Source: Taklimakanibacter lacteus (lineage in GTDB: Bacteria > Pseudomonadota > Alphaproteobacteria > Rhizobiales > Aestuariivirgaceae). From it: 64,000 nucleotides of DNA. The position numbers were made by a program, and so were the translations under genes. Positions 33,150 to 49,175 of this stretch are shown piece after piece. Numbering within the stretch: position 1 is the first letter of the stretch; every line of letters begins with the position of its first letter. Below the pieces are notes generated by a model. The model saw only the letters and a program-made list of their open reading frames with translations. It did not search any database and was not told where the DNA came from. The DNA lies in assembly GCA_003576695.1 (NCBI GenBank), contig QOZQ01000017.1:1-64000 (forward strand), given 5' to 3'.

Positions 33150-34055
33150 TCACTCCTTCTCGGTGAAACGCAGTTCGTTGAGGTGCTTCTTCATCATCTC
33201 GAAGCGCTGGAAATGCTCATCGGTGCGGCGCAGCGCCACCGCGGTCGACAATATGTCGATGACGACGAGGGCGGCGATGCGCGAGATAGTGGGTGTGTAG
33301 ATATTCGTGTTGTCGAGCGTTTCGGCGATGATCGCGACATCGCAATGGGCAACGAGGGGTGAATCCGAGCCGGTTATGCCGATGACCTTGGCGCCGCTTT
33401 CGCGGGCGGTCTGCGCGACATCGAGAATGGAGCGGGTGCGGCCGGTATTCGAGATGACGACGGCGACATTGCCGGGCCTCAGCATCGAAGCCGCCATGAC
33501 CTGCTGGTGCGAATCGAGCTGCGCCCCGCAGGGCACGCCGAACAGCGGGAATTTCTGTTGCGCGTCGCGCGCCACGATGCCCGAGGCGCCGAAGCCGAAG
33601 AACTCGATGGCCGTCGCGTTCTCGAGCAGAAGGATCGCCTGCCCGAGCGCTTCCTTGTCCATGTGATGCCGGGCCCAGTCGAGGCTGGTGATCGTGTAGT
33701 CGAAGATCTTCTCGAGCACGGCCTGCGGCGGATCGGTGGCCAGCAGCACCGAATGCGTGGCCGGGGTGCCGAGCGCCAGGCTGTGCGCCAGCCGCAGCCG
33801 GAAATCCTGGAAGCCCTCGCAGCCGACCGCGACGCAGAAGCGGATGACCGTCGGCTGGCTCACCGCCGCGATCTCGGCCGTCTCGGCGATGGTCGCGTTG
33901 AGGATGCGGCGCGGATCGGCAAGCACGAGATCGGCCACCTTGCGCTCGGACTTGCGCAGATCGGCGAGCCGGGTGCGCACCATTTCGAGGATGTTCTGCG
34001 TCGTCCCGCGGAGCGGACGGGCGGAAGAGGGCGGATCGGCTGCGATATCGGTCAA
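33150..34055 (-). CDS. MurR/RpiR family transcriptional regulator
   Basis: A 301-residue regulator with an N-terminal RpiR-type helix-turn-helix (RKSERKVADLVLADPRR ... AAVSQPTVIRFC, about residues 34-77) and a C-terminal SIS sugar-phosphate-binding domain (FFGFGASGIVARDA; VAVVISNTGRTRSILD, about 140-280). Such proteins sense phosphosugars. The start appears to be TTG at 34055. It is the last gene of a minus-strand operon and probably controls the divergent promoter region at 37478-37719, where a HexR-like palindrome is found. Whether it represses or activates is unknown. Confidence 0.9.
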   Translation of the reverse strand: MTDIAADPPSSARPLRGTTQNILEMVRTRLADLRKSERKVADLVLADPRRILNATIAETAEIAAVSQPTVIRFCVAVGCEGFQDFRLRLAHSLALGTPATHSVLLATDPPQAVLEKIFDYTITSLDWARHHMDKEALGQAILLLENATAIEFFGFGASGIVARDAQQKFPLFGVPCGAQLDSHQQVMAASMLRPGNVAVVISNTGRTRSILDVAQTARESGAKVIGITGSDSPLVAHCDVAIIAETLDNTNIYTPTISRIAALVVIDILSTAVALRRTDEHFQRFEMMKKHLNELRFTEKE

Positions 34056-34094
34056 GGAAGCGGTGACCCTTCGGAGTGGAACGATGTCGCCAGT

Positions 34095-34958
34095 CTATAC
34101 CGGGCTGAACGCGTATTCCATCTGGAGCTCGGCGCGCAGCACCTGCAGCGCGGCACGGCTTGCGGCGTGATCGATTTCCCGCGGATCGGCCGTATTGAAG
34201 GCGAACATGCCACAGTGATGCGCGATCATGGCCGGTATGGCACAGGCTTGGGCCAGCCCGATCGCCTCCGCGATGGTGAGATTGCCGGCGACCTCCAGCG
34301 CGCGCAGCCTCTCGGACCGGCCATTGGCGGGAAGCAGCGCCAGATCGGGAGCGATGGCTGCAACATCATCGGTCTGCCGGGGAAACGGTATAGTGTCGCC
34401 CGAATGGAAGATGCACCGGCCCTCCATCTCGATGCCGTAGCCCAGAAAGCGGTGATGCCCTTCGGCATCCTTTTCCAGCGTCTCATGCGCGGCCCGCAAC
34501 GCCCTAACGACGACACCCGGCAGGGGCTCGACGCGCTCGCCAGCATTCAGGGGCACAAGCCTTTCCACATCGACGCCGATGCGTTCGCGGCTGAGTGCCA
34601 ACGCGGCGCGGGGAACGACGAAGCGCAGTTGCGGATGGGCTTCGGCCAGGGGCTTCAGCGTTTCGCCATCCATGTGATCGGTGTGATGATGCGTGCACAG
34701 GACGAGATCGACCGGCCCAAGCTCCTGCGGGGTCGCCGGCGCTGCCATTATGCGCTCATGCGGTGTAGCGCTGCCGCGATATTTGCGCGCCAGCGAATCC
34801 GAAAGATAGGGATCGATGACGAGGCGGTAACGCGGCGTGGTCACGACAAAGCCGGCCTGGCCCAGCCAGTGGAGTATGATCCCGGGGGAGCGCGACGCAG
34901 CGAGCCTCTCAGCCAGCGAGTCGATGAAAGGCGTTACCGTGAGCGACGCCCGCGCCAT
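34095..34958 (-). CDS. Metallo-beta-lactamase-fold hydrolase, UlaG-like
   Basis: A 287-residue MBL-fold enzyme. Metal ligands are visible: HHHTDH in LVLCTHHHTDHMDG, Asp in IFHSGDTIPFP, and a late histidine pair in AMIAHHCGMFAFN. The start LHWLGQAGFVV and the spacing resemble the UlaG (L-ascorbate 6-phosphate lactonase) group, so it could be a sugar lactonase. This fits the surrounding dehydrogenase and isomerase genes, but the substrate is unknown. It begins two bases before the upstream dehydrogenase stop and is followed by the RpiR gene after 39 bp. Confidence 0.85.
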   Translation of the reverse strand: MARASLTVTPFIDSLAERLAASRSPGIILHWLGQAGFVVTTPRYRLVIDPYLSDSLARKYRGSATPHERIMAAPATPQELGPVDLVLCTHHHTDHMDGETLKPLAEAHPQLRFVVPRAALALSRERIGVDVERLVPLNAGERVEPLPGVVVRALRAAHETLEKDAEGHHRFLGYGIEMEGRCIFHSGDTIPFPRQTDDVAAIAPDLALLPANGRSERLRALEVAGNLTIAEAIGLAQACAIPAMIAHHCGMFAFNTADPREIDHAASRAALQVLRAELQMEYAFSPV

Positions 34959-34959
34959 T

Positions 34960-35889
34960 TCAGGACGCCTTCAGGCTTTCGATGAGATTCTTCACCGCGA
35001 TCTCGGTCGCCCGGTCGATGCTTTCCTCGGTGAAGCCGCCAATATGGCTGGTGGCGATGACGCGCGGATGCCGGGCAAGCGTCAATTGCTGCGGCGGCTC
35101 TTCGCTGAAGACATCGGTCGCATAGGCGGACAGCTCGCCGCTGTCGAGCGCCGCGATGACCGCGGTCTCGTCGATGAGGCTGGCGCGCGCCGTGTTGATG
35201 AGGATGGCGCCGTAGCGTCCCGAAGCCAGCACGCCCTGATCGATGAGTGGGCGGCCGTCAGCGGGTGCTGGGCAATGGAGCGTGATGATCTCGCTTTCGC
35301 CGAGCACGGTGGCAAGGTCGGCCCGGCGCAAGGCATCTTCAGGCACATCGACTTCGGGGTTCAGCGGATCATGGATGCTGATGTGGGCGCCGAGCGCCGC
35401 CGCGAGCCGCGCCACCTGTCGGCCGACCGCGCCGCAGCCGATGATGCCGACCTGCCGGCCCTTGATCTCGCGGCCGCGCCGGCGCGGCCATTCACCGGCC
35501 TTGATGCCGGCATCGCAGAACGGCACATGGCGCAGCGCCGTCAGCATCAGGCAGATGGTGAGCTCGGCCACGCCCGATGCATTGGCGCCATCGGCGGTGC
35601 ACAGGCGGATGCCGCGCTGGCTGAGATCGGCGAGCGGCAGGTTGTCGACGCCGGTGCCGTTGCGGCTGATGACCCGCAAGGCGGGTGCGGCGGCAATCAC
35701 TTTGGCCGAGACAGGCTCGACGCCGGCAAGCCAGCCGACGACCTCGGGCACCAGACGCAGGAGCTCGGTCTCGTCCGGCAGCTTGCCCGCTGTCGAATAG
35801 ACGATGTCGAAACCCTGGCGCCGCAACTCTTCCACCGCCGGGTGCGGCGCCTCGGTCAGCGAGCGTGGCGTGACGAGGATGCTGCTCAT
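34960..35889 (-). CDS. D-isomer-specific 2-hydroxyacid dehydrogenase
   Basis: A 309-residue NAD(P)-dependent dehydrogenase of the D-2-hydroxyacid/phosphoglycerate family. The substrate arginine is in SRNGTGVDNLP, the Rossmann motif GIIGCGAVGRQVARLAAALG (about 141-160), and the catalytic histidine in ATSHIGGFTEES. The family's glutamate is in 'TDVFSEEPP'. Likely reduces or oxidises a sugar-derived hydroxyacid in the pathway encoded here. Overlaps the upstream shikimate-dehydrogenase-like gene by 4 bp. Confidence 0.9.
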   Translation of the reverse strand: MSSILVTPRSLTEAPHPAVEELRRQGFDIVYSTAGKLPDETELLRLVPEVVGWLAGVEPVSAKVIAAAPALRVISRNGTGVDNLPLADLSQRGIRLCTADGANASGVAELTICLMLTALRHVPFCDAGIKAGEWPRRRGREIKGRQVGIIGCGAVGRQVARLAAALGAHISIHDPLNPEVDVPEDALRRADLATVLGESEIITLHCPAPADGRPLIDQGVLASGRYGAILINTARASLIDETAVIAALDSGELSAYATDVFSEEPPQQLTLARHPRVIATSHIGGFTEESIDRATEIAVKNLIESLKAS

Positions 35890-36860
35890 GCGGGCTTCGC
35901 CTTCGCCGCGACGGCCGCAATTGCCGAGATCGCATCGAATTCCGGTCCCTTGACTGGAATGTCGATATGGAAGACCTCGGCGATCACCTGGGTCCAGCCA
36001 TGGATGAAGTAAGTCCAGCCGTCCTCGATCTGGAGATCGCGCATCCGCTGCTGCGCCCGCGCCTGGTCGAGGAAGATGAGGTCGCCGCGGTAATTGAGGT
36101 CCCAGACGATGCCGCGCTGGGGGAACGTCACGCCATCGCTCAAGGGTGAGCCTGGCGCATCCTTGCCGAGGCCGGTGGCATTGATGACGAGCGCGCCGGG
36201 CTTGAGCCTGGCGACGACGGCGTCATTGTCGCGCGGATCGGGCGCCAGCACATAGTCCGTCGGGATGCCGCTCGCGAGCTCGGCATGGATGCGCCGGATC
36301 TCGTCGAGCCGCACCGGGCTGCGGTTGGAGACGATGATGCGCGACGGGCGGTCGGCGCCGCGTTGCGCCTGCATCATGTGCCAGGTGAGCGCGATGGTCG
36401 ACCCGCCGGCGCCGATCGAGAACAGTTCGGCTTGCGTCCGGGCGAAATGGCCGGGCGCGATGAAGCCGTCCATCGCCAGGCCGGATGAGATCGGATCCTT
36501 GGCATGGCAGATGAGCTGATTGCCGCGCTTCGACAGGCAGCTCGTCTCGCCCATGAACCGCGCATGCGGATCGATCTCGTCGAAGAGATCGCGGCAGGCC
36601 CTGTAGAGATCGATCTTATGGGTGGTGACGAGCGCGCCGAGCGACAAGGGGTCGTCCTTGATGAAGCTCACCGCGGCGCGATAGCGCTCAGGGTCGGCAT
36701 GGAGCGGGAAATCGATGCCCTTGATCCGGGCATCCGTCAGGCCGAGATGCGCCGCCCATGCCGGGAACACATTCATGATCGAGCTTTTGGCCGTCGTTAC
36801 GCCGATGAAATAGAGGGTAGGCTCGCTCGCCGGCTGGTAGGTCGTCGCCATGGCGCTCAC
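35886..36860 (-). CDS. Divergent shikimate dehydrogenase-like oxidoreductase
   Basis: A 324-residue AroE-fold protein. The N-terminal substrate domain has GALVTTHKIDLY, in which the lysine matches the catalytic Lys of AroE (NVTxPxK), and an Asp in HAKDPISSGLAMDG matching the catalytic NTD region. The nucleotide motif is SIGAGGSTIALTWHM. The usual shikimate-contacting 'HSxSPxxHN' is replaced by AKSSIMNVFPAW and NTD by AKD, so its natural substrate is probably not shikimate. The gene is longer than AroE (about 270). Start is GTG 36860, overlapping the upstream stop, or ATG 36851. It sits in a sugar operon, not with aro genes. Confidence 0.82.
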   Translation of the reverse strand: MSAMATTYQPASEPTLYFIGVTTAKSSIMNVFPAWAAHLGLTDARIKGIDFPLHADPERYRAAVSFIKDDPLSLGALVTTHKIDLYRACRDLFDEIDPHARFMGETSCLSKRGNQLICHAKDPISSGLAMDGFIAPGHFARTQAELFSIGAGGSTIALTWHMMQAQRGADRPSRIIVSNRSPVRLDEIRRIHAELASGIPTDYVLAPDPRDNDAVVARLKPGALVINATGLGKDAPGSPLSDGVTFPQRGIVWDLNYRGDLIFLDQARAQQRMRDLQIEDGWTYFIHGWTQVIAEVFHIDIPVKGPEFDAISAIAAVAAKAKPA

Positions 36861-37477
36861 GAAGCCTTGGCGAAGATGCTGTCGACAAGCTCGCGCGAAC
36901 GGTAGCGATAGCTCGCATTGTCGACCGCGATCCAGCCGCCGGCGCCGTTATCGACGATGCGGCTGCGCATGCCGCCGGCCTTGGCGATGATGTCATAGTC
37001 CTGGCCGGAATCGGCCGGATAGGCGAAGGTCATCACCAGCATGTCCGCTCCGGTATTGATCGAGCGGTGGATCCAGTAGGGCGGGACATAGCAGATCGTC
37101 CGCGGCGCGATCTCGACGGTGCGGATTTCTCCGGCGGGCGATTCCATGAGCATCAGGCCCCGCCCGCTCTCGCCATAATAGATTTCCGGCCGGTCGGCAT
37201 TGGCGTGGATATGGCCGCGGGTGAGGAAATATTCGCGGCCGACCTTGCCGGGCAGCATTTTCGTCACTCCGACGATCATGTCCCCGGCATCCTGCGACGG
37301 CTTGTAGTCGGTCACTTCATAGACGGCGGTCCCGCCCATTTTCCGCAAGAGCGCCTCGTAGGCGGCCGCGTCCTCATAGAGCCCGGCGAGATCGCCCAGG
37401 GTCTTGGTGTAGCGGTTGGTCGCCCCGACAAGTTCGCCTTTGGCGACATCCACGACACAGATTCCGGGTTCCCGCAT
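36857..37477 (-). CDS. Cupin-type glucose-6-phosphate isomerase family protein
   Basis: A 206-residue cupin of the archaeal-type phosphoglucose isomerase family. The metal-binding set is seen in TRGHIHANADRPEIYYGESG (His, His, Glu) plus a later His in YWIHRSINTG. Family members interconvert aldose and ketose phosphates, usually glucose-6-P and fructose-6-P. In this operon it may act on another sugar phosphate. First gene of the minus-strand operon, facing the sugar ABC importer. The start is the ATG at 37477 (MREPGICVVD), preceded by the purine-rich GAATTGGAGGCC. Confidence 0.85.
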   Translation of the reverse strand: MREPGICVVDVAKGELVGATNRYTKTLGDLAGLYEDAAAYEALLRKMGGTAVYEVTDYKPSQDAGDMIVGVTKMLPGKVGREYFLTRGHIHANADRPEIYYGESGRGLMLMESPAGEIRTVEIAPRTICYVPPYWIHRSINTGADMLVMTFAYPADSGQDYDIIAKAGGMRSRIVDNGAGGWIAVDNASYRYRSRELVDSIFAKAS

Positions 37478-37719
37478 TCAGGCCTCCAATTCGAGCAACT
37501 GTGTAATTATACTACATATCGACTTGTGAAGATGCAAGATGGCAAGGAAGTTGGCTGCGAACAGCCCTGAAAACCCTCAGTTTTTCCGGATTTTACGCAA
37601 TTATGTACAGTTGCTTCAACTTTGTGCGCTTGACCAAATTCCAAATATGTATCTATGCTACAAAAAGGGCAGACAGATAAAGCGCCCTCGTGAAACGTGA
37701 TCGCAAAGGAGGAACAGCG
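37478..37719. promoter_or_regulatory. Divergent promoter region of the sugar catabolic divergon
   Basis: A 242-bp AT-rich region between the cupin isomerase operon (minus) and the sugar ABC operon (plus). It holds a HexR-like palindrome at 37502-37516 and a plausible plus-strand sigma-70 promoter: TTGACC (37630-37635), 18-bp spacer, TATGCT (37654-37659). A ribosome site AAAGGAGGAA precedes the ATG at 37720. Confidence 0.6.
37502..37516. promoter_or_regulatory. RpiR/HexR-type operator candidate
   Basis: TGTAATTATACTACA agrees at 13 of 15 positions with the HexR consensus TGTAATTAAATTACA as I know it; HexR is an RpiR-family repressor. It lies 25-39 bp upstream of the minus-strand operon start that encodes an RpiR-family regulator, so that regulator is the obvious ligand. 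Confidence 0.55.
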
Positions 37720-38685
37720 ATGAAGACGGCCTTACTGGGAAGTGCGGTAGCGGTGACATTGATGCTTGGCGCGGCCGGCGCAGCCCAGGCCGAATGCAAG
37801 GTCGGCATTGCCATGTATACGCTGGGAGCGCCTTATTTCGCGGCCCAGGTGGCGGCCGCCGAGGACCAGGCCAAGAAAGCAGGCTGCACCGTCACCACCT
37901 CCGACGGGCAGAATGAAATGGGCAAGCAGATCGCCGATGTCGAGGACATGATCGCCAAGGGCGTCAATCTCCTCATCCTCAATCCGCGCGATCCCGAGGG
38001 CCTGATCCCGACCGCCAATGCGGCAACCGCCGCCGGCGCCAAGGTCATCGTGATGGATTCGAGCATCAGCACCAAGGCGAATGTCGTCACCCAGGTGCGC
38101 TCCTCCAATGATCAGAACGGCTATCTCGTCGGCCAGTGGCTGGCCCAGAAGATGAAGGGCACGCCGATGAAGATCATCCTGCTCTCGGGCGACAAGGGCA
38201 ACGAAGTCGGCCGTGACCGCCGTCTCGGCGTGTTCCGCGGCCTCGTCGAAGGCCAGCTCGTCAATGAGGGCAAGGCCAGCTTTGAAGTGGTGGGCCAGGG
38301 CTGGGGCGGCTGGTCGCATGAAGGCGGCCTGAAGGCGATGGAGGATCTCCTCACCGCGCATCCCGACGCCAATGTCGTGCTGGGCGAGAATGATTCGATG
38401 GTGCTCGGCGCCCTCAAGGCGCTCGAAGCCGCCGGCAAGACCGATGTGCTGGCGCTTGCCGCCGCCGATGGCCAGAAGGAGGCCCTGGCGCTCATCAAGG
38501 ACGGAAAATACGGCGCCACCGGCCTCAATGATCCTGATCTCGTCGCCCGCACCGCGGTCGATATCGGCCTCAAGGCCCTCGATGGCAGCCTGCCGGCTGA
38601 CTTCCCGAAGCTTGAGCTGACGACGCCCGCGGTGATCACGCAGGAGAATGTCGACAAGTTCTATCGTCCCGACGCTGTATTCTGA
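37720..38685 (+). CDS. Sugar ABC transporter periplasmic substrate-binding protein
   Basis: A 321-residue periplasmic binding protein of the ribose/galactose type (Peripla_BP_4). Signal peptide 1-24 (ending AQAECK), then the typical 'KVGIAMYTLGAPYFAAQVAAAEDQAKKAG' start and GKQIADVEDMIAKGVNLLILNPRD. Downstream are VMDSSISTKANVVTQVRSSND and VLGENDSMVLGALKALEA. First gene of the plus-strand operon; captures a monosaccharide or polyol for the ATPase and permease that follow. Start 37720 has a strong ribosome site (GGAGGAA); an in-frame ATG/GTG upstream at 37690 is less likely. A hairpin follows the stop. Confidence 0.92.
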   Translation: MKTALLGSAVAVTLMLGAAGAAQAECKVGIAMYTLGAPYFAAQVAAAEDQAKKAGCTVTTSDGQNEMGKQIADVEDMIAKGVNLLILNPRDPEGLIPTANAATAAGAKVIVMDSSISTKANVVTQVRSSNDQNGYLVGQWLAQKMKGTPMKIILLSGDKGNEVGRDRRLGVFRGLVEGQLVNEGKASFEVVGQGWGGWSHEGGLKAMEDLLTAHPDANVVLGENDSMVLGALKALEAAGKTDVLALAAADGQKEALALIKDGKYGATGLNDPDLVARTAVDIGLKALDGSLPADFPKLELTTPAVITQENVDKFYRPDAVF

Positions 38686-38719
38686 GACCGCGTTGGCCTT
38701 TAAGGTATAAGCGTGAGCT

Positions 38720-38743
38720 GACGGCGGGACCTCTCCCGCCGTC
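38720..38743 (+). promoter_or_regulatory. Intercistronic hairpin between binding protein and ATPase genes
   Basis: Perfect 10-bp stem GACGGCGGGA / TCCCGCCGTC with a CCTC loop and no clean T-run directly after it. Such hairpins after the binding-protein gene stabilise its mRNA and cause partial termination, giving excess binding protein. Confidence 0.6.
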
Positions 38744-38770
38744 GAGCCGTTTTCGCGGGGTCGGACTTCA

Positions 38771-40282
38771 GTGACAGAACTCGCAAAGCTCGTTGCGATC
38801 AGCAAGTCTTTCGGCGGCGTGCGCGCGCTGGTGGAGGCCGATTTCGACGTCAAAGCCGGCGAGGTGCACGCGCTCCTCGGCGAGAACGGCGCCGGCAAGT
38901 CGACGCTGATGCGTGTGCTCAGCGGCGAGATGATCCCCAATGACGGCGAGATCCATTTGGGCGGCGAGCGTGTCGAATTGCGCGATCCGCGCGATGCGAG
39001 AGCCCGCGGCATTGCGGTCATCCACCAGGAGCTGGCGCTGGCGCCCGATTTGTCGGTGGCCGAGAACATCTTTCTGGGCGAGCTGCCCGGCGTCATAGGC
39101 TGGAAGGATCTCAATCGCCGCGCCCGCCAGCTCATCGAGCGCTTGGGCTTCGACATCGATCCGAAGCGCATCGTCGGCTCTCTGGCCGTCGCCCATCAGC
39201 AGATCGTCGAGATCGCCAAGGCCCTGTCGCGCGATGTCAGGATCATCGTGTTCGACGAGCCGACGGCGGTTCTCTCCACCCAGGATGCCGAACGGCTGCA
39301 CGAGATCATCAAGGGCCTGCGCGCCAACGGTGTCGGCGTCGTCTACATATCCCACCGCCTGGAAGAGGTCTTCCGCATCTCCGATCGCGTGACGGTAATG
39401 AAGGATGGCCAGGTCGTGGGCACTGTTGCCACGCGCGACGTTACCATCGACAAGGTCATCCGCATGATGGTGGGGCGCTCGCTGGCCGCCATGTTCCCGG
39501 ACAAGGGTGAGCGCAAGATCGGCGCGGTCAGGCTGGAAGCCAGCAAGCTCAATGCCGGCCGCATGGTGCGCGATGTCAGCTTCTCGTTGCGTGCCGGTGA
39601 AGTCGTCGGTCTTGGTGGCCTGGTGGGCTCCGGCCGCACCGAGGTGGCGCGCGCGATCTTCGGCGCCGATCCGCTCGACAGCGGCACCATCCTTCTCGAC
39701 GGCAAGCCATTGCATGCGCGCTCGCCGCGCGATGCGGTGAAAGCCGGCATCGGTCTCGTTCCCGAGGACCGCAAGCAGCATGGCGTCGTGCTCGACAAGC
39801 CGATCCGCATCAACGTGACCATGGCGCGCCTGGCCGAGGTGGTGAACGGCCTGGGCTTCCTCAAATCCGCGAAAGAGAGCGGGCTTGTCGGCGACCTCGC
39901 CAGGAGCCTCAAGCTCAAGGCCGAGAGCATCGATGCCCCGGTATCGAGCCTTTCGGGCGGCAACCAGCAGAAGGTGGTTCTCGCCAAATGGTTTCATGCC
40001 GGCGGCGATGTGATCATCCTCGATGAGCCGACGCGCGGCGTCGATGTCGGCGCCAAGTCCGAGATCTACGGCCTGGTCAACAAGCTTGCCGAGGCGAACA
40101 AGGCGGTGCTGGTGATCTCCTCCGAGCACCAGGAGCTCTTCGGCCTGTGCGATCGCGTCCTGGTCATGGGCGAGGGCGAATTGCGCGGTGAGCTGAGACC
40201 TGAGAGCTACAGCGAGGAAAACCTGTTGTCGATGGCAATGACCGGCCGTCTGACCGAAACGCACGAGGGCATGCCGTCATGA
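38771..40282 (+). CDS. Sugar ABC transporter ATP-binding protein (two NBDs)
   Basis: A 503-residue double ATPase of the RbsA/MglA type. The first domain has Walker A GENGAGKST (about 38-46) and Walker B VIVFDEPTA-like 'IIVFDEPTAVLS'. The second has a degenerate Walker A (GGLVGSGRTE), an intact signature LSGGNQQKVVLAKWF and Walker B VIILDEPTRGVDVG. This asymmetry is normal for the family. GTG start at 38771. Its stop overlaps the permease ATG by 4 bp. Confidence 0.93.
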   Translation: MTELAKLVAISKSFGGVRALVEADFDVKAGEVHALLGENGAGKSTLMRVLSGEMIPNDGEIHLGGERVELRDPRDARARGIAVIHQELALAPDLSVAENIFLGELPGVIGWKDLNRRARQLIERLGFDIDPKRIVGSLAVAHQQIVEIAKALSRDVRIIVFDEPTAVLSTQDAERLHEIIKGLRANGVGVVYISHRLEEVFRISDRVTVMKDGQVVGTVATRDVTIDKVIRMMVGRSLAAMFPDKGERKIGAVRLEASKLNAGRMVRDVSFSLRAGEVVGLGGLVGSGRTEVARAIFGADPLDSGTILLDGKPLHARSPRDAVKAGIGLVPEDRKQHGVVLDKPIRINVTMARLAEVVNGLGFLKSAKESGLVGDLARSLKLKAESIDAPVSSLSGGNQQKVVLAKWFHAGGDVIILDEPTRGVDVGAKSEIYGLVNKLAEANKAVLVISSEHQELFGLCDRVLVMGEGELRGELRPESYSEENLLSMAMTGRLTETHEGMPS

Positions 40283-41289
40283 CATTTCTCACCAGCAAGG
40301 CCGAGTCGAATGCGAAACCCGCGTCCGAAACGGCCGGTGGCTTCAGGTTTGCCGACTATCTGCAGCGCTTCGGCACGCTCGGCATTTTCCTCGTCCTGGT
40401 CGTCGTCGCCTCGCTGTGGTCCGACGCCTTCCTCACCAAGATCAATATCCTCAATGTGCTGCGCCAGGTCGCTTCCGGCGCCGGCATCATGGCGGTGGGC
40501 ATGCTGTTCGTGATCCTGACGCGCGGCATCGATCTGTCGGTCGGTTCGATCGCCGCCTTGGGCAGCGTGCTGACCGGCTATTTCTGCACGATTTCCGGCT
40601 TCGGCATCGCCATGACGACGTTCCTCGTCATCCTGTCGGGCGCCGCCTGCGGCCTGGTGACCGGCGCCTTCGTCGCCTATCTGCGCCTGCCGTCTTTCGT
40701 GATGTCGCTCGCCATGATGGCGGTGGCGCGCGGCCTTTCACTGATCATCTCGGACGGCCGCCCCATCACTCTGGGCGATCAGGGCGCGGCCTTCACCAAT
40801 TTCGGCTCGGGCCACTGGTTCGGCATGCCGCAGCCGGTGATCCTGATGTTCGCCGTCTTCATCGTCGGCGGCATCGTGCTCAACTTCACCCGCTTCGGCC
40901 GTGTCATCACCGCCATCGGCTCCAATGAAGAAGCCGTTCGTCTCTCCGGCATCGCTGTGCCGCGCTATGTGCTGGCGGTCTATGTGATCTCGGGCGCGCT
41001 TGCTGCCGTTGCCGGCATCATCTCCTCGAGCCGCACCGGCGTCGGCTCCTCGCAAGTGGGCGTCGCGGCCGAGCTCAATGTCATCGCCGCCGTGGTGATC
41101 GGCGGCGCCAGCCTGATGGGCGGGCGTGGCGGCGTCATCAACACGCTGCTCGGCGCTCTGGTCATGGGCATCATTGCCAATATCATGAATCTTGCCGGCG
41201 TTCCGGGCTACCACCAGCAGGTCTATATGGGCGCCATCATCGTCGTTGCCATGCTGCTGCAATATGGTTCGGGCTCGCTCAAGACCTGA
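40279..41289 (+). CDS. Sugar ABC transporter permease (RbsC-type)
   Basis: A 336-residue inner membrane permease with about 8-10 membrane segments. The family loop ILTRGIDLSVGSIAALGSVLTG is present, as is the EAA-like stretch AIGSNEEAVRLSGIAVPRY and VVIGGASLMGGRGGVINTLLGAL. It would form the channel with the preceding ATPase and binding protein. Next gene, an FGGY kinase, starts 20 bp downstream. Confidence 0.93.
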   Translation: MTFLTSKAESNAKPASETAGGFRFADYLQRFGTLGIFLVLVVVASLWSDAFLTKINILNVLRQVASGAGIMAVGMLFVILTRGIDLSVGSIAALGSVLTGYFCTISGFGIAMTTFLVILSGAACGLVTGAFVAYLRLPSFVMSLAMMAVARGLSLIISDGRPITLGDQGAAFTNFGSGHWFGMPQPVILMFAVFIVGGIVLNFTRFGRVITAIGSNEEAVRLSGIAVPRYVLAVYVISGALAAVAGIISSSRTGVGSSQVGVAAELNVIAAVVIGGASLMGGRGGVINTLLGALVMGIIANIMNLAGVPGYHQQVYMGAIIVVAMLLQYGSGSLKT

Positions 41290-41309: not shown

Positions 41310-42815
41310 ATGCTCCGCGACCTCTCTCTCTCGATCGATGTCGGCACGGGCAGCGCCCGGGCGGCGCTGGTCGATGGGGCAGGCGCCATCCTGCATATCG
41401 CGGCACGCGAATATGACCAGATCGTCCCGGCCTTCGGCTGGGCCGAGCAGCGACCTGGCGACTGGTGGGCGGGTGTCGTCCACGCCGTGCGCGCCGCACT
41501 TGCCGCGGTCGAGAACGGGCCTGAGCGCATCGCCGCCATCTGCGCCTGCGGTCAGATGCATGGGACCGTGCTGGTGGACGAGGCGGGCGAGCCGACCCGC
41601 GCCACGGTGCCCTTGTGGAACGACAAGCGCACCATCGACCTGGTGGCCGGCTTCGAGCGGGCCAATGCGCCGGAAACTTATCTCCCGCTGAGCGGCAACC
41701 CGCCGACGCCGGCTTGGCCCGGCTTCAAGCTCGCCTGGCTGCGCGACAATGATCCGCAAGCCTACCGCAAGGCGCATGCCGTCATCATGCCGAAGGATTA
41801 CATCAATCTTCGCCTGACCGGCGCCATCGCGATGGATTCAGGCGATGCCTCCTGCAGCTTCCTTATGGATCCCGGGCAGCGCACCTGGTCGCAGCCGATG
41901 ATCGACCGGCTCGGCCTCGACAAGGCGAAGCTGCCGCCGATACGCGAACCACTCGAGATCCTGGGGCATGTCACGCCGGAAGCGGCGCGCGAGACCGGCT
42001 TGCGCGCGGGAACGCCGGTTCTCGTCGGCGGCGCCGACTACCCGGTCGCCGTCTTGGGATCAGGCGCCCTTCGTCCGGGTCTCGCTTCCGATGTCACCGG
42101 CACATCCTGCATCCTGACGCTGATCGCCGACAAGCCATTGCTCGATCCCGAGATCTGCAATGTCGCGACTGTCGAAGGCCATTGGGGGCCCTTTGTACTG
42201 CTCGAGACCGGCGGCGATGCGATGCGTTGGGCAAGGCGCGCCTTCCACGAGAAGTCGTTGAGCTATCAGGAGATCGCGGCCAAGGCCGGGGAGGCGAGAG
42301 CCGGCGCCGATGGCCTGATCTTCATGCCCTATCTCGCCGGCGAGCGCCTCGGTGCCCATCGCAATGCCCGCGCCCAGTTTTTCGGCATCGGCGCCGCCCA
42401 TGGCCTGGCGGAGTTGCACCGCGCCGTGATGGAGGGCGTGGCTTTCGCGGCCGCGCGTCATCTGAGGATCATGGAGCGGGCCGCGGGCAACCGGCTGGAG
42501 CGGGTCATCGCTTCGGGCGGCGGCGCCAAGTCGCCGCTCTGGCTCAAGATCAAGGCCAGCCTCTATGGCATTCCGATCGTCGTGCCGCGCGAGGCCGAAT
42601 GCGGTGTCATCGGCTGCGCCGCCATGGCCGCCACCGCGACCGGGCGCTACTCGCGGATCGAGGATGCCGTCTCAGCTTACGTGAAATATGCCGATGAGGT
42701 TCTCCCCGACCCAGCCTGGCGCGAGACCTATGCGCGCATGCAGCCGCTGTTCGACCGGCTCTATGCGCACAGCCAGGCCCTCTATGATGATCTCGACAAG
42801 CTTACCCAGCCATGA
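41310..42815 (+). CDS. FGGY-family carbohydrate kinase, xylulokinase-like
   Basis: A 501-residue sugar kinase. It has the phosphate-1 motif LSIDVGTGSARAALVD, a xylulokinase-style AICACGQMHGTVLVDE and PLWNDKRT, FKLAWLRDNDPQAYRKAH, an Asp base near GGADYPVAVLGSGAL, and the FGGY signature region VIASGGGAKSPLWLKIKA. Phosphorylates a ketose or polyol taken up by the importer encoded just upstream; xylulose-like substrates are most consistent, but specificity is not readable. Followed by an SDR gene. Confidence 0.88.
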   Translation: MLRDLSLSIDVGTGSARAALVDGAGAILHIAAREYDQIVPAFGWAEQRPGDWWAGVVHAVRAALAAVENGPERIAAICACGQMHGTVLVDEAGEPTRATVPLWNDKRTIDLVAGFERANAPETYLPLSGNPPTPAWPGFKLAWLRDNDPQAYRKAHAVIMPKDYINLRLTGAIAMDSGDASCSFLMDPGQRTWSQPMIDRLGLDKAKLPPIREPLEILGHVTPEAARETGLRAGTPVLVGGADYPVAVLGSGALRPGLASDVTGTSCILTLIADKPLLDPEICNVATVEGHWGPFVLLETGGDAMRWARRAFHEKSLSYQEIAAKAGEARAGADGLIFMPYLAGERLGAHRNARAQFFGIGAAHGLAELHRAVMEGVAFAAARHLRIMERAAGNRLERVIASGGGAKSPLWLKIKASLYGIPIVVPREAECGVIGCAAMAATATGRYSRIEDAVSAYVKYADEVLPDPAWRETYARMQPLFDRLYAHSQALYDDLDKLTQP

Positions 42816-42837
42816 TGCACGCGAAAGGACCCTGCCG

Positions 42838-43596
42838 ATGGAAGAGATAATCGCAACCTTCAGGCCCGATCTGTTCGCCGGCAAGCGCGTGCTGGTGTCG
42901 GGCGCCTCGAGCGGCATTGGCCTCGCCATGGCGCAGGGCTTCGCCAGGCTCGGAGCGGATGTCATCGCGACCGGAACATCCGAGGCGAAGCTTGCGGGAG
43001 CGAAGGCCGATCCGGCCAACAAGGGAATCAGGTTTGCCGTGCTCGATGTGCGCGACCGCAAGGCGATCGACACTTTCATCTCAGCCCTTCCCGGGCTCGA
43101 CGTGCTCGTCAACGCCGCCGGCATCGTGAAGCCGGAAGACGAGTTCGGCGAAGAAGGCTATCTTGATGTCATCGACGTCAATCTCAACAGCGTGATGCGC
43201 CTGTCGATGGCGGCCCGGCCGCTGCTCACCCGCTCGAAGGGCGTCATCATCAACACCGCCTCGATGCTGAGCTATGTGGTCGACGATTCGGTCCCGGCCT
43301 ATTGCGCCAGCAAGACCGGCATTCTCGGACTGACCCGGGCGCTGGCGCACCGCTTCGGCCCTGACGGCATACGCGTCAACGCCATAGCGCCCGGCTATCA
43401 CAAGACCAATATGACCAAGCCCCTCTGGTCCGATCCCGGGCCGGCGGCGACCATTGCCCGCAAGGCGGCGCTGAAACGCTGGGGAACGGTCGATGACCTC
43501 GTCGGCGCTGCGATCTTCTATGCCTCGCCCGCTTCCGCCTTCGTGACCGCGACGACCTTGCCGGTCGATGGCGGCTATGTCGTGAGCGGGTTCTGA
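42838..43596 (+). CDS. SDR family oxidoreductase (polyol dehydrogenase-like)
   Basis: A 252-residue short-chain dehydrogenase: VLVSGASSGIGLAMAQGFAR, NAAG in LVNAAGIVKPED, catalytic Ser in INTASMLSY, YCASKTG, and the C-terminal LPVDGGYVVSG. It begins with the short leader MEEIIATFRPDLFAGKRV typical of arabinitol/xylitol-type SDRs linked to FGGY kinases. Likely oxidises a polyol to the ketose that one of the kinases phosphorylates. Start 42838 follows GAAAGGAC. It ends two bases before the next gene. Confidence 0.9.
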   Translation: MEEIIATFRPDLFAGKRVLVSGASSGIGLAMAQGFARLGADVIATGTSEAKLAGAKADPANKGIRFAVLDVRDRKAIDTFISALPGLDVLVNAAGIVKPEDEFGEEGYLDVIDVNLNSVMRLSMAARPLLTRSKGVIINTASMLSYVVDDSVPAYCASKTGILGLTRALAHRFGPDGIRVNAIAPGYHKTNMTKPLWSDPGPAATIARKAALKRWGTVDDLVGAAIFYASPASAFVTATTLPVDGGYVVSGF

Positions 43597-43598
43597 CC

Positions 43599-44744
43599 AT
43601 GCCGGAATCCTCACACGCCCAGCGCTTCCTGTCCGGCCGTTCCTTCGGCGGACCCGGCAAATATATCCAGCGTGCCGGCGAGATGGGCCGTCTCGCGCAT
43701 CACCTGCAGCCCTTGGGCAAGACCGCCTTCCTGCTCGTCGACGGCTGCGTGATCGAGAAAATGGGGCAGGCGATCGAGCGGTCCTTTGCCGGCTCCGGCA
43801 TTTCAATCCGCCTGGAGCGTTTCGGCGGCGAGTGTTGCACCGAGGAAATCGAGCGCGTGACGGCTTTGGTCAGGGCGGCCAAGGCCGATATCGTCGTCGG
43901 CATCGGCGGCGGCAAGACCGCCGATACCGCGAAGCTCGCGGCAATCGCCAATGACGCACGCATCGTGATCGCGCCGACCATCGCCTCGACCGACGCGCCC
44001 TGCAGCGCTGTCGCGGTGCGCTACACGGCGCAGGGCATATGCGAGGAGGCGCTGTTCCTGTCGCGCAATCCCGATCTGGTGATCGTGGACAGCGCGGTGA
44101 TCGCCAAGGCACCGGTCCGCTTTCTCGTCGCCGGCATCGGCGATGCGCTCTCGACCTGGTATGAGGCGCGCTCCAATCTCGACTCGCGCTCTGCCAATCT
44201 GGTGCAGCCGAACCTGCCGGCGCCCGCCGCCGCCATCGCCATCGCCCGCGCCTGTCATGACGTGCTGATGCGCGATGCGCTCGCCGCGAAGATCGCGGTG
44301 GAGAAAGGTCTGCTCACACAAGCGGTCGAGAACATCATCGAGGCGAACACGCTGCTGAGCGGTCTTGGCTTCGAGAACTGCGGCGTTTCGGCGGCGCATG
44401 GCATTCATGACGGCCTGACCGTGCTGCACGGGACGCACGGCTTCCTGCACGGCGAGAAAGTGGCCTTCGGCGTCCTTTGCCTGCTCATGCTGGAGGGCCG
44501 TCCGCTGATCGAGATCGAGGAGACGGCGCGTTTCTGCGCGGCGCTCGGCCTGCCGACGCGGCTCGCCGATCTGGGGCTCGCCGATGCAAGTCCGGCCGAT
44601 ATCGGGCGGGTCGCCGAGGCCTCCCTCAAGCCGGGTTCGTCGATCTACAAGGTCGCCGTGCCGCTTTCGCCCGAGATCGTTCGCGACGCGATCCTGTCGC
44701 TCGATGCCTTCACCCGTGAGTTGACCAGCCATGCCCGCGCCTGA
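43599..44744 (+). CDS. Iron-type alcohol dehydrogenase, GldA-like
   Basis: A 381-residue group III dehydrogenase of the glycerol dehydrogenase type. N-terminal GPGKYIQRAGEMGRLAHHL, NAD motif VGIGGGKTADTAKLAA, APTIASTDAPCSAVAV, and metal ligands in GIGDALSTWYEAR (Asp), SAAHGIHDGLTVLHGTHGFLHGEKV (two His). Acts on glycerol or related polyols. It is read directly after the SDR and 40 bp before the zinc dehydrogenase, giving three dehydrogenases of different folds in one operon. Confidence 0.92.
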   Translation: MPESSHAQRFLSGRSFGGPGKYIQRAGEMGRLAHHLQPLGKTAFLLVDGCVIEKMGQAIERSFAGSGISIRLERFGGECCTEEIERVTALVRAAKADIVVGIGGGKTADTAKLAAIANDARIVIAPTIASTDAPCSAVAVRYTAQGICEEALFLSRNPDLVIVDSAVIAKAPVRFLVAGIGDALSTWYEARSNLDSRSANLVQPNLPAPAAAIAIARACHDVLMRDALAAKIAVEKGLLTQAVENIIEANTLLSGLGFENCGVSAAHGIHDGLTVLHGTHGFLHGEKVAFGVLCLLMLEGRPLIEIEETARFCAALGLPTRLADLGLADASPADIGRVAEASLKPGSSIYKVAVPLSPEIVRDAILSLDAFTRELTSHARA

Positions 44745-44784
44745 TCTCGCCATTCGCCCCGCGGCCCACCAAGAGGACAAGAAA

Positions 44785-45801
44785 ATGCAAGCAGCCGTCA
44801 TGTATTCGCCGGGCGACATCCGCCTCGAGGAGGTCGCCAAGCCCCGCGCCGATGCGGGTGAGGTGCTCCTGCGCGTCGCCGCCGTCGGCGTGTGCGGCTC
44901 CGACATACCGCGCATGCTGACCAAGGGCGCCCACAACATGCCGATCATCTGCGGTCATGAATTCTCCGGTCATATCGAGGAGGTCGGCAGGGGGGTCGAG
45001 GATTTCAGCGAAGGCGATCTCGTCGGCGTGGCGCCGCTGATACCCTGCCGCGTCTGCGACCAGTGCGTCACCGGCAACTTCTCGCGCTGCCGCGACTATG
45101 ATTATTTCGGCAGCCGCCGCGACGGCGCCTATGCCGAATATGTCGCCGTGCCCCAGCGCAACCTGCTCAAGGCGCCGAAGGGCACCGATCCGCGCGCCGT
45201 CGCCATGACCGATCCGGCCTCGATTGCGCTTCATGCCATCTGGAAGGCAGCGCCGACGATGGGCGATCGCGGCGGCGTCATCGGCTGCGGACCCATCGGC
45301 CTGTTCGCCATCCAGTGGATGAAGCTCATGGGCTGCCGCGAAATCGTGGCGGTCGACATTTCCGGGCAGAAGCTCGATCAGGCGCGCGAAGCCGGCGCCA
45401 CCCATGCCTTCCTGGTGAGCGATGAGATACCCGCAGCTTTGAAATGCGACATCATCGTCGAAGCGGCTGGCCATCCGTCCTCGATCAACCTCGCCGCCCG
45501 CCTCGCGGCGCCCGGCGGCCATGTCTCTTTCATCGGCATTCCGGTTGGCGATGTGACGCTTGAGAACAAGACCTTCCATCACTTCCTGCGCCAGGAGATC
45601 TCGCTCCATGGCGCGTGGAATTCCTTCGGCGCGCCCTTTCCCGGCAAGCAATGGCAGGTGGCGCTCGAGAACCTGAGCTCCGGCGCCTTGCGCTGGGAGT
45701 TCATGATCACCCATGAGCTGGGTCTCGCCGAGCTTCCGGCGATGTTCCAGAAGCTACGCCAGAAGAACGAGTTCTTCGCCAAGATCATGTTCAGGCCCTA
45801 G
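44785..45801 (+). CDS. Zinc-dependent alcohol dehydrogenase, sorbitol/galactitol-phosphate DH-like
   Basis: A 338-residue MDR enzyme. Catalytic zinc ligands in VGVCGSDIPRM (Cys) and CGHEFSGHIEEVG (His-Glu). The structural zinc site is present in PCRVCDQCVTGNFSRC (four Cys). NAD motif GVIGCGPIGLFAIQW. The wording is closest to galactitol-1-phosphate 5-dehydrogenase and sorbitol dehydrogenases. Start 44785 has AGAGGACAAG upstream. Likely oxidises a polyol or polyol phosphate in this pathway. Confidence 0.9.
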   Translation: MQAAVMYSPGDIRLEEVAKPRADAGEVLLRVAAVGVCGSDIPRMLTKGAHNMPIICGHEFSGHIEEVGRGVEDFSEGDLVGVAPLIPCRVCDQCVTGNFSRCRDYDYFGSRRDGAYAEYVAVPQRNLLKAPKGTDPRAVAMTDPASIALHAIWKAAPTMGDRGGVIGCGPIGLFAIQWMKLMGCREIVAVDISGQKLDQAREAGATHAFLVSDEIPAALKCDIIVEAAGHPSSINLAARLAAPGGHVSFIGIPVGDVTLENKTFHHFLRQEISLHGAWNSFGAPFPGKQWQVALENLSSGALRWEFMITHELGLAELPAMFQKLRQKNEFFAKIMFRP

Positions 45802-45837
45802 GAAATGTGGAATGATTTCCGCCCGGGGAGCTAGGTG

Positions 45838-47364
45838 ATGGGACTTCTTCTCGGACTCGATTTCGGCACCGGGGGCGTCAGGGTCGGGGTCTTCGACCTC
45901 GCGCGCCGCGCCTTGCTGGGCGAGAGCGAGGCGCGCTATCCGACGCATTACCCGCGGCCGGGCTGGGCCGAGCAATCGGCCATCGACTGGTGGGAAGCGC
46001 TGGGCGTGGCGACGCGCGATCTGATGGCGAAGCTCGGATCGCCCCGGATCGACGGCATCTGCACGGCGACGACCGCTTCCACCGTCGTCGCCTGCAAGCG
46101 CGACGGCACTCCGCTGCGCCCGGCGCTGCTGTGGATGGATTGCCGCGCGGCGGCGGAAGCCGACCGGACCGCCAAATCCAGCCACCCGGTTCTTGCCTTT
46201 GCGGGCGGCAGCGATGCCGCCGAATGGCTTGTTCCCAAGGCCATGTGGATGGCCCACAATGAGCCCGATACCTATGCCGAGGCCGATATCATCTGCGAAT
46301 GCCTCGATTATGTGAATTTCAAGCTGGCCGGCCGATGGGTCGGGTCGCGCATGAACGCCACCTGCAAGTGGAACTATGATTCGGTCGCCGGGAAATTTCA
46401 TCCCGAGCTCTATGCCGAGCTGGGCGTGCCCGACCTTGCCGGCAAGCTGCCTTCCGAAATCATCGCGGTCGGTGCGCCGATTGGTCCGATCACCGCCGCC
46501 GCCGCCAACCATCTCGGCCTCACCGGCCGTCCCATGCTGGCGCAGGGCGGCATCGACGCTCATATCGGCATATTGGGGGCGGGAACGCTGGCACCCGGCG
46601 AATTGCTGATGATCGGCGGCACCTCGGTCGTCCATCTGTTCCAGTTGGCGGGCGAAAAGAAGGTCGATGGATTCTGGGGACCTTATCCGCACGCGCTGGT
46701 CGATGATTTCTGGCTGGTGGAAGCGGGACAGGTTTCGGCGGGCTCGGTCCTCTCATGGTTCGCCCAGGACATGTTCGCTCTCGATGCCGCCGCGGCGGCG
46801 AAGCTGCAGGCAGAGGCCGCATCTCTCCCCGTGGGCGAAACCGGCCTTCTGACCCTCGATTATTTCATGGGCAACCGTACGCCCTATCGCGACCCGTTGC
46901 GCCGCGGCGCGGTATTGGGACTGTCGCTGGGCCATGATCGCGCCGCCCTTTACCGCTCGGCGATCGAAAGCGTGGCGCTCGCTTCCGCCAATGTGATCCG
47001 GCGCATGGCCGAGCTCGCCATTCCGTGCCGGCGCATCGTGAGCGCCGGCGGCTATGCCAAGAACAGCCTGTGGCTCAAGGCGACGGTCGATGCCATCGGC
47101 CTGCCGGTCGAGCTCCAGCCCGATGTCAATCTGTCGATCATCGGCGCTGCGGCCTCGGCGGCGACGGGCGCCGGGCTGGTCCCGGATCTTTTCGCGGCCG
47201 CCGCCGCCGTGACGGGGCCTGCCGTCACCATCGAGCCGGATCCCGCGGCGCATGCCAGATACCGCGACCTGCTGGAGGACTATCTGGAAGCGAGCGAGCT
47301 TCTGGCGCCGCTGTCGCGCCGTCTCGCCGAGCGCCAGCTGCGGAGCGGCCAACATGCCCACTGA
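45838..47364 (+). CDS. FGGY-family pentulose kinase, ribulokinase-like
   Basis: A 508-residue second FGGY kinase, clearly different from the one at 41310. Phosphate-1 motif LGLDFGTGGVRVGVFD; GWAEQSAIDWWEAL; ALLWMDCRAAAEAD; the late YFMGNRTPYRDPLRRGAVLGLSLGH block typical of the ribulokinase/pentulose kinase branch; SAGGYAKNSLWLKATV near the end. It likely phosphorylates a pentulose made by the upstream dehydrogenases. GTG-ATG at 45835/45838 gives two near-equal starts; GGGGAGC lies upstream. Overlaps the SorC regulator by 11 bp. Confidence 0.88.
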   Translation: MGLLLGLDFGTGGVRVGVFDLARRALLGESEARYPTHYPRPGWAEQSAIDWWEALGVATRDLMAKLGSPRIDGICTATTASTVVACKRDGTPLRPALLWMDCRAAAEADRTAKSSHPVLAFAGGSDAAEWLVPKAMWMAHNEPDTYAEADIICECLDYVNFKLAGRWVGSRMNATCKWNYDSVAGKFHPELYAELGVPDLAGKLPSEIIAVGAPIGPITAAAANHLGLTGRPMLAQGGIDAHIGILGAGTLAPGELLMIGGTSVVHLFQLAGEKKVDGFWGPYPHALVDDFWLVEAGQVSAGSVLSWFAQDMFALDAAAAAKLQAEAASLPVGETGLLTLDYFMGNRTPYRDPLRRGAVLGLSLGHDRAALYRSAIESVALASANVIRRMAELAIPCRRIVSAGGYAKNSLWLKATVDAIGLPVELQPDVNLSIIGAAASAATGAGLVPDLFAAAAAVTGPAVTIEPDPAAHARYRDLLEDYLEASELLAPLSRRLAERQLRSGQHAH

Positions 47365-48361
47365 CACGCGCGAACGCGACACGCAATTGCGCGGCCTGTC
47401 GAGCGAGCAGCGCGAGCAGCTGATGATCCAGGTGGCCAAGCGCTATTACGAGCTCGACATGACGATGGGCGATCTGGCCCAGGAGCTCGGGCTCACCCGC
47501 TGGCAGGCCAGCCGCCTGTTGAGCGAAGCGCGCGAAACCGGACTGGTGCGCATCGAGATCGTGCCGCGCGCCCCCCGCCGGCCGGATATCGAAAGCCGCC
47601 TGCAGCGCCGCTATGGCTTGCGCGATGCCATCGTCGTTCCCGTCACCGCCGAAGGCGACGGGGAGTTGCTGCTCGACGCAGTGGCCCTGGCTGCCGGGCG
47701 CCTCCTTGCCGGGCTCGGCAAGTTTCCGCTGATCGGCGTGTCCTGGGGCCGTACCATGAGCGCCGTTGCGCATCGCCTGCCGCCCTTCTGGAATGACGGC
47801 GTCGAGGTCGTGCTGCTGAACGGCGCCATGAATATCCGCTCACCCTCGGTGCGCACCAACAATGTGGCCGAGCTCTTTGCCCGCTCCGCCAATGGCACGG
47901 CGACCCTGCTGCCGGTCCCCGCCATATTGGGCCACGCGGCGACGCGCGTCGCGCTCGAGGAGGATCCGACCATTGCCAGCGTGCTGGCATTGGGACGCCG
48001 GGCGCCGGTGATCTGCTTCGGCATGGGTTCGCTTGCCGCGGATTCGGTTCTCCTGCAATCGGGCTTCGTCTCCGAGGCCGAGGTCGCCGCCCTGAAGGCA
48101 AAGGGCGCGGTCGGCGACATATTGAGCCGCTATGTCGACGCCCATGGCAATATCGTCGATCAAGATCTCGATGCCCGCACCATCGGCCTCGAGCTGCGCT
48201 TCTGCCGGCAGCGCGAATTCTCGATCGGCATCGCCGCGGGCGAGGGCAAGCGCGCCATCATCCTGGCCTGCCTCAGGGCAGGCTATATCAATGTGCTTGT
48301 GACCGATCAGGACACGGCAGTCTGGCTGCTCAATGACGATCAGCGCGATCCGCCTGAGTGA
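47354..48361 (+). CDS. SorC-family sugar-binding transcriptional regulator
   Basis: A 335-residue SorC/DeoR-type regulator: N-terminal helix-turn-helix (MTMGDLAQELGLTRWQASRLLSEARETG, about 37-64) and a C-terminal phosphosugar-binding domain (LIGVSWGRTMSAVA; VRTNNVAELFA; ICFGMGSLAADSVL). Same family as EryD, DalR and SorC, which control polyol operons. Last gene of the plus-strand operon, translationally coupled to the second kinase, and convergent with the GntR gene. The divergon thus has two regulators, RpiR and SorC. Confidence 0.92.
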   Translation: MPTDTRERDTQLRGLSSEQREQLMIQVAKRYYELDMTMGDLAQELGLTRWQASRLLSEARETGLVRIEIVPRAPRRPDIESRLQRRYGLRDAIVVPVTAEGDGELLLDAVALAAGRLLAGLGKFPLIGVSWGRTMSAVAHRLPPFWNDGVEVVLLNGAMNIRSPSVRTNNVAELFARSANGTATLLPVPAILGHAATRVALEEDPTIASVLALGRRAPVICFGMGSLAADSVLLQSGFVSEAEVAALKAKGAVGDILSRYVDAHGNIVDQDLDARTIGLELRFCRQREFSIGIAAGEGKRAIILACLRAGYINVLVTDQDTAVWLLNDDQRDPPE

Positions 48362-49174: not shown

Positions 49175-49175
49175 T

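Follow-up and report, generated by a model that had tools for sequence, protein, structure and literature searches.

Gene clusters for sugar alcohols that combine an ABC importer, polyol dehydrogenases and an FGGY kinase are known from the erythritol/threitol loci and from the D-altritol and galactitol pathways of Agrobacterium. A D-altritol 5-dehydrogenase of the Agrobacterium D-altritol pathway is described in PMC12193009. The cluster reported here, at positions 33150–48361 of a 64,000-nucleotide stretch of the Taklimakanibacter lacteus genome (contig QOZQ01000017.1, positions 1 to 64,000; hereafter the window), is a regulon for polyol catabolism that includes an AroE-fold branch, so far uncharacterised; very probably it takes up a rare sugar alcohol and channels it into sugar-phosphate metabolism, aided by an AroE-like enzyme. 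It is like the described clusters in its apparent import, oxidation to a ketose and phosphorylation, and unlike them in carrying a cupin-family phosphoglucose isomerase (cPGI), a shikimate-dehydrogenase-family protein (AroEL), a metallo-beta-lactamase-fold hydrolase (MBL), a 2-hydroxyacid dehydrogenase (2HADH) and, often in its relatives, an aldolase of the 2-keto-3-deoxy-6-phosphogluconate (KDPG) type.

Several other described systems have counterparts in this cluster. The HexR/Entner-Doudoroff regulon has parallels in a HexR-like RpiR regulator, in a TGTAR...YTACA palindrome that resembles the HexR consensus, and in the KDPG-type aldolase of many clusters; unlike that regulon, the cluster has an RpiR below the HexR cut-off, the only exact operator in its genome, and no dehydratase gene. 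The cupin-type phosphoglucose isomerases (PF06560; PDB 1j3p and 1qxj) share their conserved metal ligands and phosphate contacts with cPGI, which is here linked to AroEL and whose substrate is assigned by inference. AroEL has the fold, the Lys/Asp pair and the NADP-type motif of the shikimate dehydrogenase family (AroE, YdiB, Ael1 and 5-ketofructose reductase), but differs in its low identity to solved members, in the replacement of most shikimate contacts, in having no Pfam match and in being tied to a sugar-polyol regulon. No description of the cluster was found in the literature searched, in which subscription journals are poorly covered.

The 14 genes, eleven encoding enzymes and regulators and three an importer, are arranged as two divergent operons separated by about 0.21–0.24 kb (Table 1), and their family assignments hold in Pfam and NCBIfam. 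The five minus-strand genes are those for RpiR, MBL, 2HADH, AroEL and cPGI, and the nine on the plus strand encode the periplasmic binding protein (SBP), ATPase and permease of the importer, a first FGGY kinase (FGGY1), a short-chain dehydrogenase/reductase (SDR), a GldA-like dehydrogenase, a zinc-dependent dehydrogenase (ZnDH), a second FGGY kinase (FGGY2) and a SorC-type regulator. Adjacent genes overlap or almost touch, with overlaps of 4 nt at 2HADH/AroEL and at AroEL/cPGI. An earlier note on this DNA had described the named genes as packed head-to-head in a single polyol/sugar divergon; all were found, near-touching as described, and the comparison of neighbourhoods bears out the single divergon, which is conserved across families and in Burkholderiales.

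For this comparison GTDB genomes were scanned with AroEL and the best 80 of 158 loci were kept, and in 62 of these the contig extends 9 kb or more in both directions from AroEL (the well-flanked set; contigs end near the other 18, which were omitted). The fetched flanks were 10 kb per locus, and linkage was called by tblastn with the window genes, with half of the query covered and an identity of at least 40%. cPGI lies near AroEL in all 62 well-flanked loci, RpiR in 60, MBL in 59, FGGY1 in 57, 2HADH in 50 and a window-type SBP in 36, and all 87 loci have at least one further core cluster gene beside AroEL. As judged by sequence comparison, the conserved linked set is thus FGGY1, cPGI, AroEL, MBL, 2HADH and RpiR, usually with the importer, together with a shared palindrome. 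That two unrelated operons merely adjoin here is extremely improbable: transcription is divergent, and the importer and dehydrogenases of the plus side do vary between loci, but 40 of the 80 GTDB loci share with the window an SBP gene divergent from cPGI, at 141–328 nt, FGGY1 takes that divergent position in 11 of the 87, and the operator is shared. We regard it as nearly certain that the cluster is one regulon.

Because the loci had been selected by AroEL, a reverse test was run from cPGI in 385 genomes sampled from the class. cPGI was present in five, all among the eight with an AroEL-profile match; going by their coordinates, cPGI and AroEL lie next to each other in the window's genome and in three others (G008, G706 and G776) and about 0.7 kb apart in the fifth (G616). 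Four of these five genomes belong to one genus, so the test represents few independent events. Two of the AroEL-profile matches have low scores (80.7 and 51.4 bits, with 28% and 22% identity; L144:6610–7536 and L145, approximately 8983–9846), and each of these genes adjoins an oppositely oriented gene for a thiamine-pyrophosphate enzyme; they possibly represent a sister family with another function. A cPGI–AroEL fusion, suspected from an open reading frame of 609 codons' worth of amino acids, was rejected as an open upstream frame. Clusters occur in Rhizobiaceae, Brucellaceae, Aurantimonadaceae, Rhodobacterales, Acetobacteraceae-like bacteria, Inquilinus and Burkholderiales. The distribution among soil and plant bacteria is patchy, at 3 of 398 genomes of a phylum sample and 4 of 69 of the family (the window's own genome counted in both) and none of the four other genomes of the window's genus, and horizontal spread is likely.

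A dyad search over the divergent intergenic regions returned TGTAGT-N3-ACTACA, present with up to two mismatches in 41 of 55 regions (the window's included) as against 1.45% of base shuffles. Its degenerate form, TGTARTNNNAYTACA, occurs with up to two mismatches upstream of cPGI in 60 of 84 loci compared with 0.9% of 2104 control windows taken within these loci. These counts are partly circular, the motif having been discovered and counted in overlapping promoter sets of related genomes, and the copies before re-arranged genes in L009, L012, L032 and L083 fall outside the discovery set. The palindrome travels with the genes in re-arranged loci, being found before a separate SBP gene (L049, L050 and L069), before RpiR (L049), and, in those four loci, before the first gene of an operon with DeoC and a third FGGY kinase. 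In the window an exact copy lies 24 nt before the cPGI start codon and is the sole exact match in the 5.78-Mb genome; one-mismatch matches are not enriched genome-wide (7, versus 21 for the reversed pattern), so that uniqueness is limited to the exact match. At 37648 a weak copy overlaps the -10 element of a promoter-like sequence (37630–37659) on the importer side. The exact palindrome is probably the operator of the cluster's RpiR. Elsewhere in the same genome another RpiR-type regulator, 33% identical to that of the window, has a one-mismatch palindrome about 100 bp before it (C20:307657 and C20:307757). The variant clusters with the extra operon (L083:15645–17943, also L009, L012 and L032) add to the gene set the third FGGY kinase and a DeoC aldolase, which in L083 scores 173.9 bits, above the cut-off of 117.3.

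AroEL is a member of the shikimate dehydrogenase superfamily by its fold and its Lys/Asp pair, and by membership test it is not AroE. It has no Pfam match at an E-value of 0.001, and it reaches 20.9 bits with the AroE model TIGR00507 (cut-off 200.2) and 37.9 with the best NCBIfam shikimate model (cut-off 413). An AlphaFold2 model built from 43 sequences (mean predicted local distance difference test score, pLDDT, 91.6) has the shikimate dehydrogenase fold, with AroE of Aquifex (2hk9; E-value 3.9e-17, TMt 0.81) as the best Foldseek match and a structural neighbour, 5-ketofructose reductase with NADPH (7col), at rank 3; identity to the shikimate dehydrogenase-family structures is 14–20% among the matches listed. 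Profile comparison with AroE gives a probability of 97.9. When AroEL was aligned with relatives' AroE-family proteins, 19 of 22 of which were extractable, K82 and D122 fell on the catalytic Lys/Asp pair, and neither varies in our 47-row alignment; the NADP-type NRS..R motif is kept, and is altered in the two most distant, plasmid-borne rows (L085 and L087).

With the numbering and contact list of E. coli AroE (Ser14, Ser16, Asn59, Thr61, Asn86, Thr101 and Gln244), Ser14 aligns with the invariant S26 and is retained, Ser16 is lost (I28), Asn59 is lost, and Asn86, Thr101 and Gln244 are replaced by S107, K121 and G288, the equivalent of Thr61 being ambiguous between two alignments. AroEL thus lacks the full set of shikimate contacts of AroE. 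The altered active site that the earlier note had proposed is upheld by this AroE-like fold with most contacts changed; its more specific statement, that the Lys and Asp are kept and the shikimate-contacting serines are not, holds for the pair and for Ser16 and fails for Ser14. Lys121 is invariant, as are the basic residues H81, K111, H119, K233 and R258. Proteins of this type are annotated as shikimate dehydrogenases in the records, and an ordinary shikimate or quinate dehydrogenase would indeed have the fold, the Lys/Asp pair and the NADP motif that AroEL retains. We give that identity almost no credence, given the TIGR00507 score, the changed contacts, the company of other core cluster genes in all 87 loci, and the presence in the same genome of a separate AroE above the cut-off (225 bits); a further family member there lies below it (165 bits).

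The likely substrate is approached through the binding protein. The SBP shares 60% identity with PDB 4RY9, a binding protein of Verminephrobacter eiseniae, which in a tree flagged for long branches from paralogues joins six Paraburkholderia cluster SBPs (100/99 support, 74–77% identity) inside the clade of cluster SBPs. Its ligand is, we assume, D-talitol, and because of this relationship a linear hexitol appears likelier than a cyclitol as the imported compound. According to PMC12193009, D-talitol and D-altritol are one compound, which alditol dehydrogenases convert to D-psicose and D-tagatose. A second SDR, absent from the window's cluster, is encoded in 35 of the 62 well-flanked loci at 40% identity or more, and has as its best PDB matches 3awd, named as a putative polyol dehydrogenase, and the galactitol dehydrogenase 2wdz; in the window's genome the best copy of this SDR, at 61% identity, lies on another contig. 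Proteins related to ketose 3-epimerases are present in a few loci. The alternative binding protein, of the CUT1 type, has no solved relative at an E-value of 1e-10. Catabolism of a linear polyol is, in our judgement, highly likely.

FGGY1 scores 350.9 bits against the xylulokinase (XylB) model TIGR01312, below its cut-off of 380.25, and keeps GQMH in 73–75 and the Asp in all of 75 aligned rows. cPGI passes PF06560 (199.6 bits, gathering score 20.7), with the His/His/Glu/His metal ligands in all 86 aligned rows (the window counted twice); of the five phosphate contacts, four are present in all rows and the fifth, a Thr, in 83. In MBL, HxHxDH and the later ligands are conserved throughout the 70 aligned rows, as are the Arg/Glu/His triad and Asp174 of 2HADH throughout its 65 (8 of 78 and 2 of 67 rows, respectively, were dropped for length). 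A KDPG-aldolase gene lies between cPGI and AroEL in 37 of the 62 well-flanked loci, every one of them with 2HADH, while 13 of the 50 loci with 2HADH have no aldolase gene. The member tested is above the TIGR01182 cut-off (208.6 versus 156.05 bits), and all 47 aligned rows have the catalytic Glu and Lys.

The best explanation overall is a regulon under RpiR/HexR-type control for a linear sugar alcohol, likeliest a hexitol of the D-talitol (= D-altritol) class, an assignment that we advance tentatively and place a little short of an even chance. We infer all of its reactions from gene content, linkage, the operator and conserved residues. The ABC importer would take up the linear hexitol, the polyol dehydrogenases (SDR and GldA-like, with the other SDR in relatives) would oxidise it to a ketohexose, FGGY1 would phosphorylate the ketose, and cPGI would convert the ketose-phosphate to an aldose-phosphate. 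AroEL would then be an NADP-dependent dehydrogenase of this sugar-phosphate and not of shikimate, MBL would open the resulting lactone, 2HADH would act at C2 of the phospho-sugar acid, and a KDPG-type aldolase, encoded within the cluster in many relatives and here available only through the genome's edd–eda pair, would cleave the product. Oxidation of a phospho-sugar feeding an Entner-Doudoroff-type cleavage is quite possible, short of probable; the exact reaction assigned to AroEL is doubtful. Distinctly doubtful is that the cluster forms a complete shadow of Pgi-Zwf-Pgl-Eda made from unrelated folds for rare hexitols, with a cupin as isomerase, an AroE-fold protein as sugar-phosphate dehydrogenase, a lactonase of the metallo-beta-lactamase fold and a 2-hydroxyacid dehydrogenase leading to Entner-Doudoroff-type cleavage without a dedicated dehydratase. 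If AroEL acts on a sugar phosphate it would, to our knowledge, be the first AroE-family enzyme known to do so. The cluster is a widespread but patchy catabolic regulon that contains an as yet uncharacterised branch of an enzyme family known from textbooks. Its assignment would correct the shikimate dehydrogenase annotations, give a role to the linked cupin phosphoglucose isomerases, and reveal whether sugar-phosphate chemistry is among the uses to which the AroE fold has been put.

A number of observations weigh against this proposal. The window has no aldolase gene, and the best match in its own genome is a 41% identical copy in an edd–eda pair, the two genes side by side on another contig (C12). 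2HADH is missing from 12 of the 62 well-flanked loci, the five Burkholderiales loci among them, and all 12 are also without the aldolase. A dehydratase sought in the cluster, Edd- or IlvD-like, was found near only 2 of the 87 loci (L079 and L086, both Marinovum algicola); the 6-phosphogluconate dehydratase of an Entner-Doudoroff branch is otherwise not encoded alongside the other steps. The Inquilinus loci (e.g. L025) are minimal, with importer, FGGY1, cPGI, AroEL and RpiR and with neither MBL nor 2HADH, and the sixth genome of the reverse test with a strong AroEL match (G692) has no detectable cPGI. As to regulation, 24 of 84 loci, Paraburkholderia included, have no good operator copy before cPGI, and RpiR misses the HexR model NF008451 (271.6 bits, cut-off 296). 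That the ligand of 4RY9 is presumed to be D-talitol must also be counted here.

Other readings of the chemistry draw on the same evidence. AroEL may act before phosphorylation on a free keto- or diketo-sugar, in the manner of 5-ketofructose reductase, with the kinase and cPGI following. That enzyme (7cok/7col, rank 3) is the sole one not named for shikimate or quinate among the best 50 of 1663 Foldseek matches (one of which is Ael1) and is also the second PDB match by profile (0.0027), and a DkgA-like aldo-keto reductase is encoded near some loci with a CUT1 importer; the low identity to the family's structures among the matches listed and the six invariant basic residues, which would suit a charged substrate, nevertheless make this reading unlikely. 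Unlikely, too, is a route in which the aldolase splits a non-deoxy 2-keto-phosphohexonate into hydroxypyruvate and triose phosphate and 2HADH reduces the hydroxypyruvate to glycerate. Such a route needs no dehydratase, in keeping with the scarcity of that gene, and it would suit the presence of 2HADH in all 37 aldolase loci, the resemblance of 2HADH to phosphoglycerate dehydrogenase (204.3 bits to TIGR01327, below the cut-off of 454) and a glycerate kinase gene near one Rhizobium leguminosarum locus; it fits poorly with the 13 2HADH loci that have no aldolase gene, and with an aldolase of the KDPG/2-keto-4-hydroxyglutarate type, a family whose usual substrates are 3-deoxy compounds.

A cyclic or branched polyol had been suggested by the earlier note, and in a cyclitol pathway AroEL would oxidise a ring polyol and the UlaG-like hydrolase open a cyclic diketone, comparable to Thermotoga IolN. 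Known AroE-family enzymes act mostly on ring substrates, ZnDH has a sub-threshold match to IolM (172.6, cut-off 450), and one relative (L085) has two epimerase-like proteins with kinship to IolO and psicose 3-epimerase. However, the SBP is orthologous to 4RY9, with its presumed linear hexitol, the main kinase is xylulokinase-like, the phosphosugar site of cPGI is intact in its metal and phosphate residues, and no inositol dehydrogenase, inosose dehydratase or IolD was found among the cluster genes, to which the scan was limited. A cyclic substrate is not supported, and a cyclitol pathway is improbable.

At the far end of the plus strand ZnDH, FGGY2 and SorC form a second module, which may provide a second entry by way of a polyol kinase and a polyol-phosphate dehydrogenase. 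In the 62 well-flanked loci ZnDH was counted at least 11 times, FGGY2 at least 8 and SorC at least 3, and these are lower bounds because in window-like loci the 10-kb flanks stop short of the end of FGGY2. The rarity suggested by the last two counts was rejected as an artefact of these flanks, since in six of eight window-like genomes (L001, L007, L018, L036, L038 and L046) a SorC 63–73% identical to that of the window lies 0.4–1.4 kb past the fetched edge, with contig identity read from coordinates; the other two (L003 and L056) have SorC matches of merely 36% and 30%. In L068, L075 and L080 the module is on the far side of RpiR. The idea in the earlier note that the substrate is phosphorylated by more than one route is therefore plausible, the module being common to a window-like subset of relatives, and the routes themselves are putative.

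Table 1. Genes and operator-like sites of the cluster, with positions in the window.
Feature	Position	Strand	Basis
RpiR-type regulator, HexR-like	33150..34055	-	PF01418 + PF01380; NCBIfam HexR subfamily 271.6 bits
MBL, metallo-beta-lactamase-fold hydrolase (UlaG-like), probable lactonase	34095..34958	-	PF12706
2HADH, D-isomer 2-hydroxyacid dehydrogenase, NAD-type	34960..35889	-	PF02826/PF00389
AroEL, shikimate-dehydrogenase-family protein, altered active site	35886..36860	-	fold, profile comparison
cPGI, cupin phosphoglucose-isomerase family	36857..37477	-	PF06560 199.6 bits; PDB 1j3p 141.9 bits
Palindromic operator TGTAATTATACTACA, probably of RpiR	37502..37516	.	exact TGTARTNNNAYTACA match
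Second, weaker operator-like site, SBP side	37648..37662	.	3 mismatches; overlaps promoter-like -10
SBP, periplasmic sugar/polyol-binding protein	37690..38685 (start perhaps 37720)	+	PF13407
Sugar ABC transporter ATPase	38771..40282	+	
Sugar ABC transporter permease	40279..41289	+	
FGGY1, xylulokinase-like ketose kinase	41310..42815	+	TIGR01312 350.9 bits
SDR oxidoreductase, putatively polyol-dehydrogenase-like	42838..43596	+	
GldA-like Fe-dependent alcohol dehydrogenase	43599..44744	+	NF006941 451.4 bits, above cut-off 336
ZnDH, Zn-dependent, galactitol-1-phosphate dehydrogenase-like	44731..45801 (start perhaps 44785)	+	NF007642 263.9 bits, cut-off 550
FGGY2 kinase, second module	45835..47364	+	
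SorC/DeoR-type sugar-phosphate regulator, second module	47354..48361	+	PF04198

The window has no Rfam match at gathering score and no tRNA gene. To the left of the cluster (29349–33147) are genes for an HtrA-like protease, a response regulator and a histidine kinase, named from their translations, the last of which is tail to tail with RpiR. Beside SorC, on the minus strand at 48377–50973, are a gene for a GntR/FCD regulator and a second pair of genes for a sugar ABC permease and ATPase, a region that the flanks of the relatives mostly stop short of.

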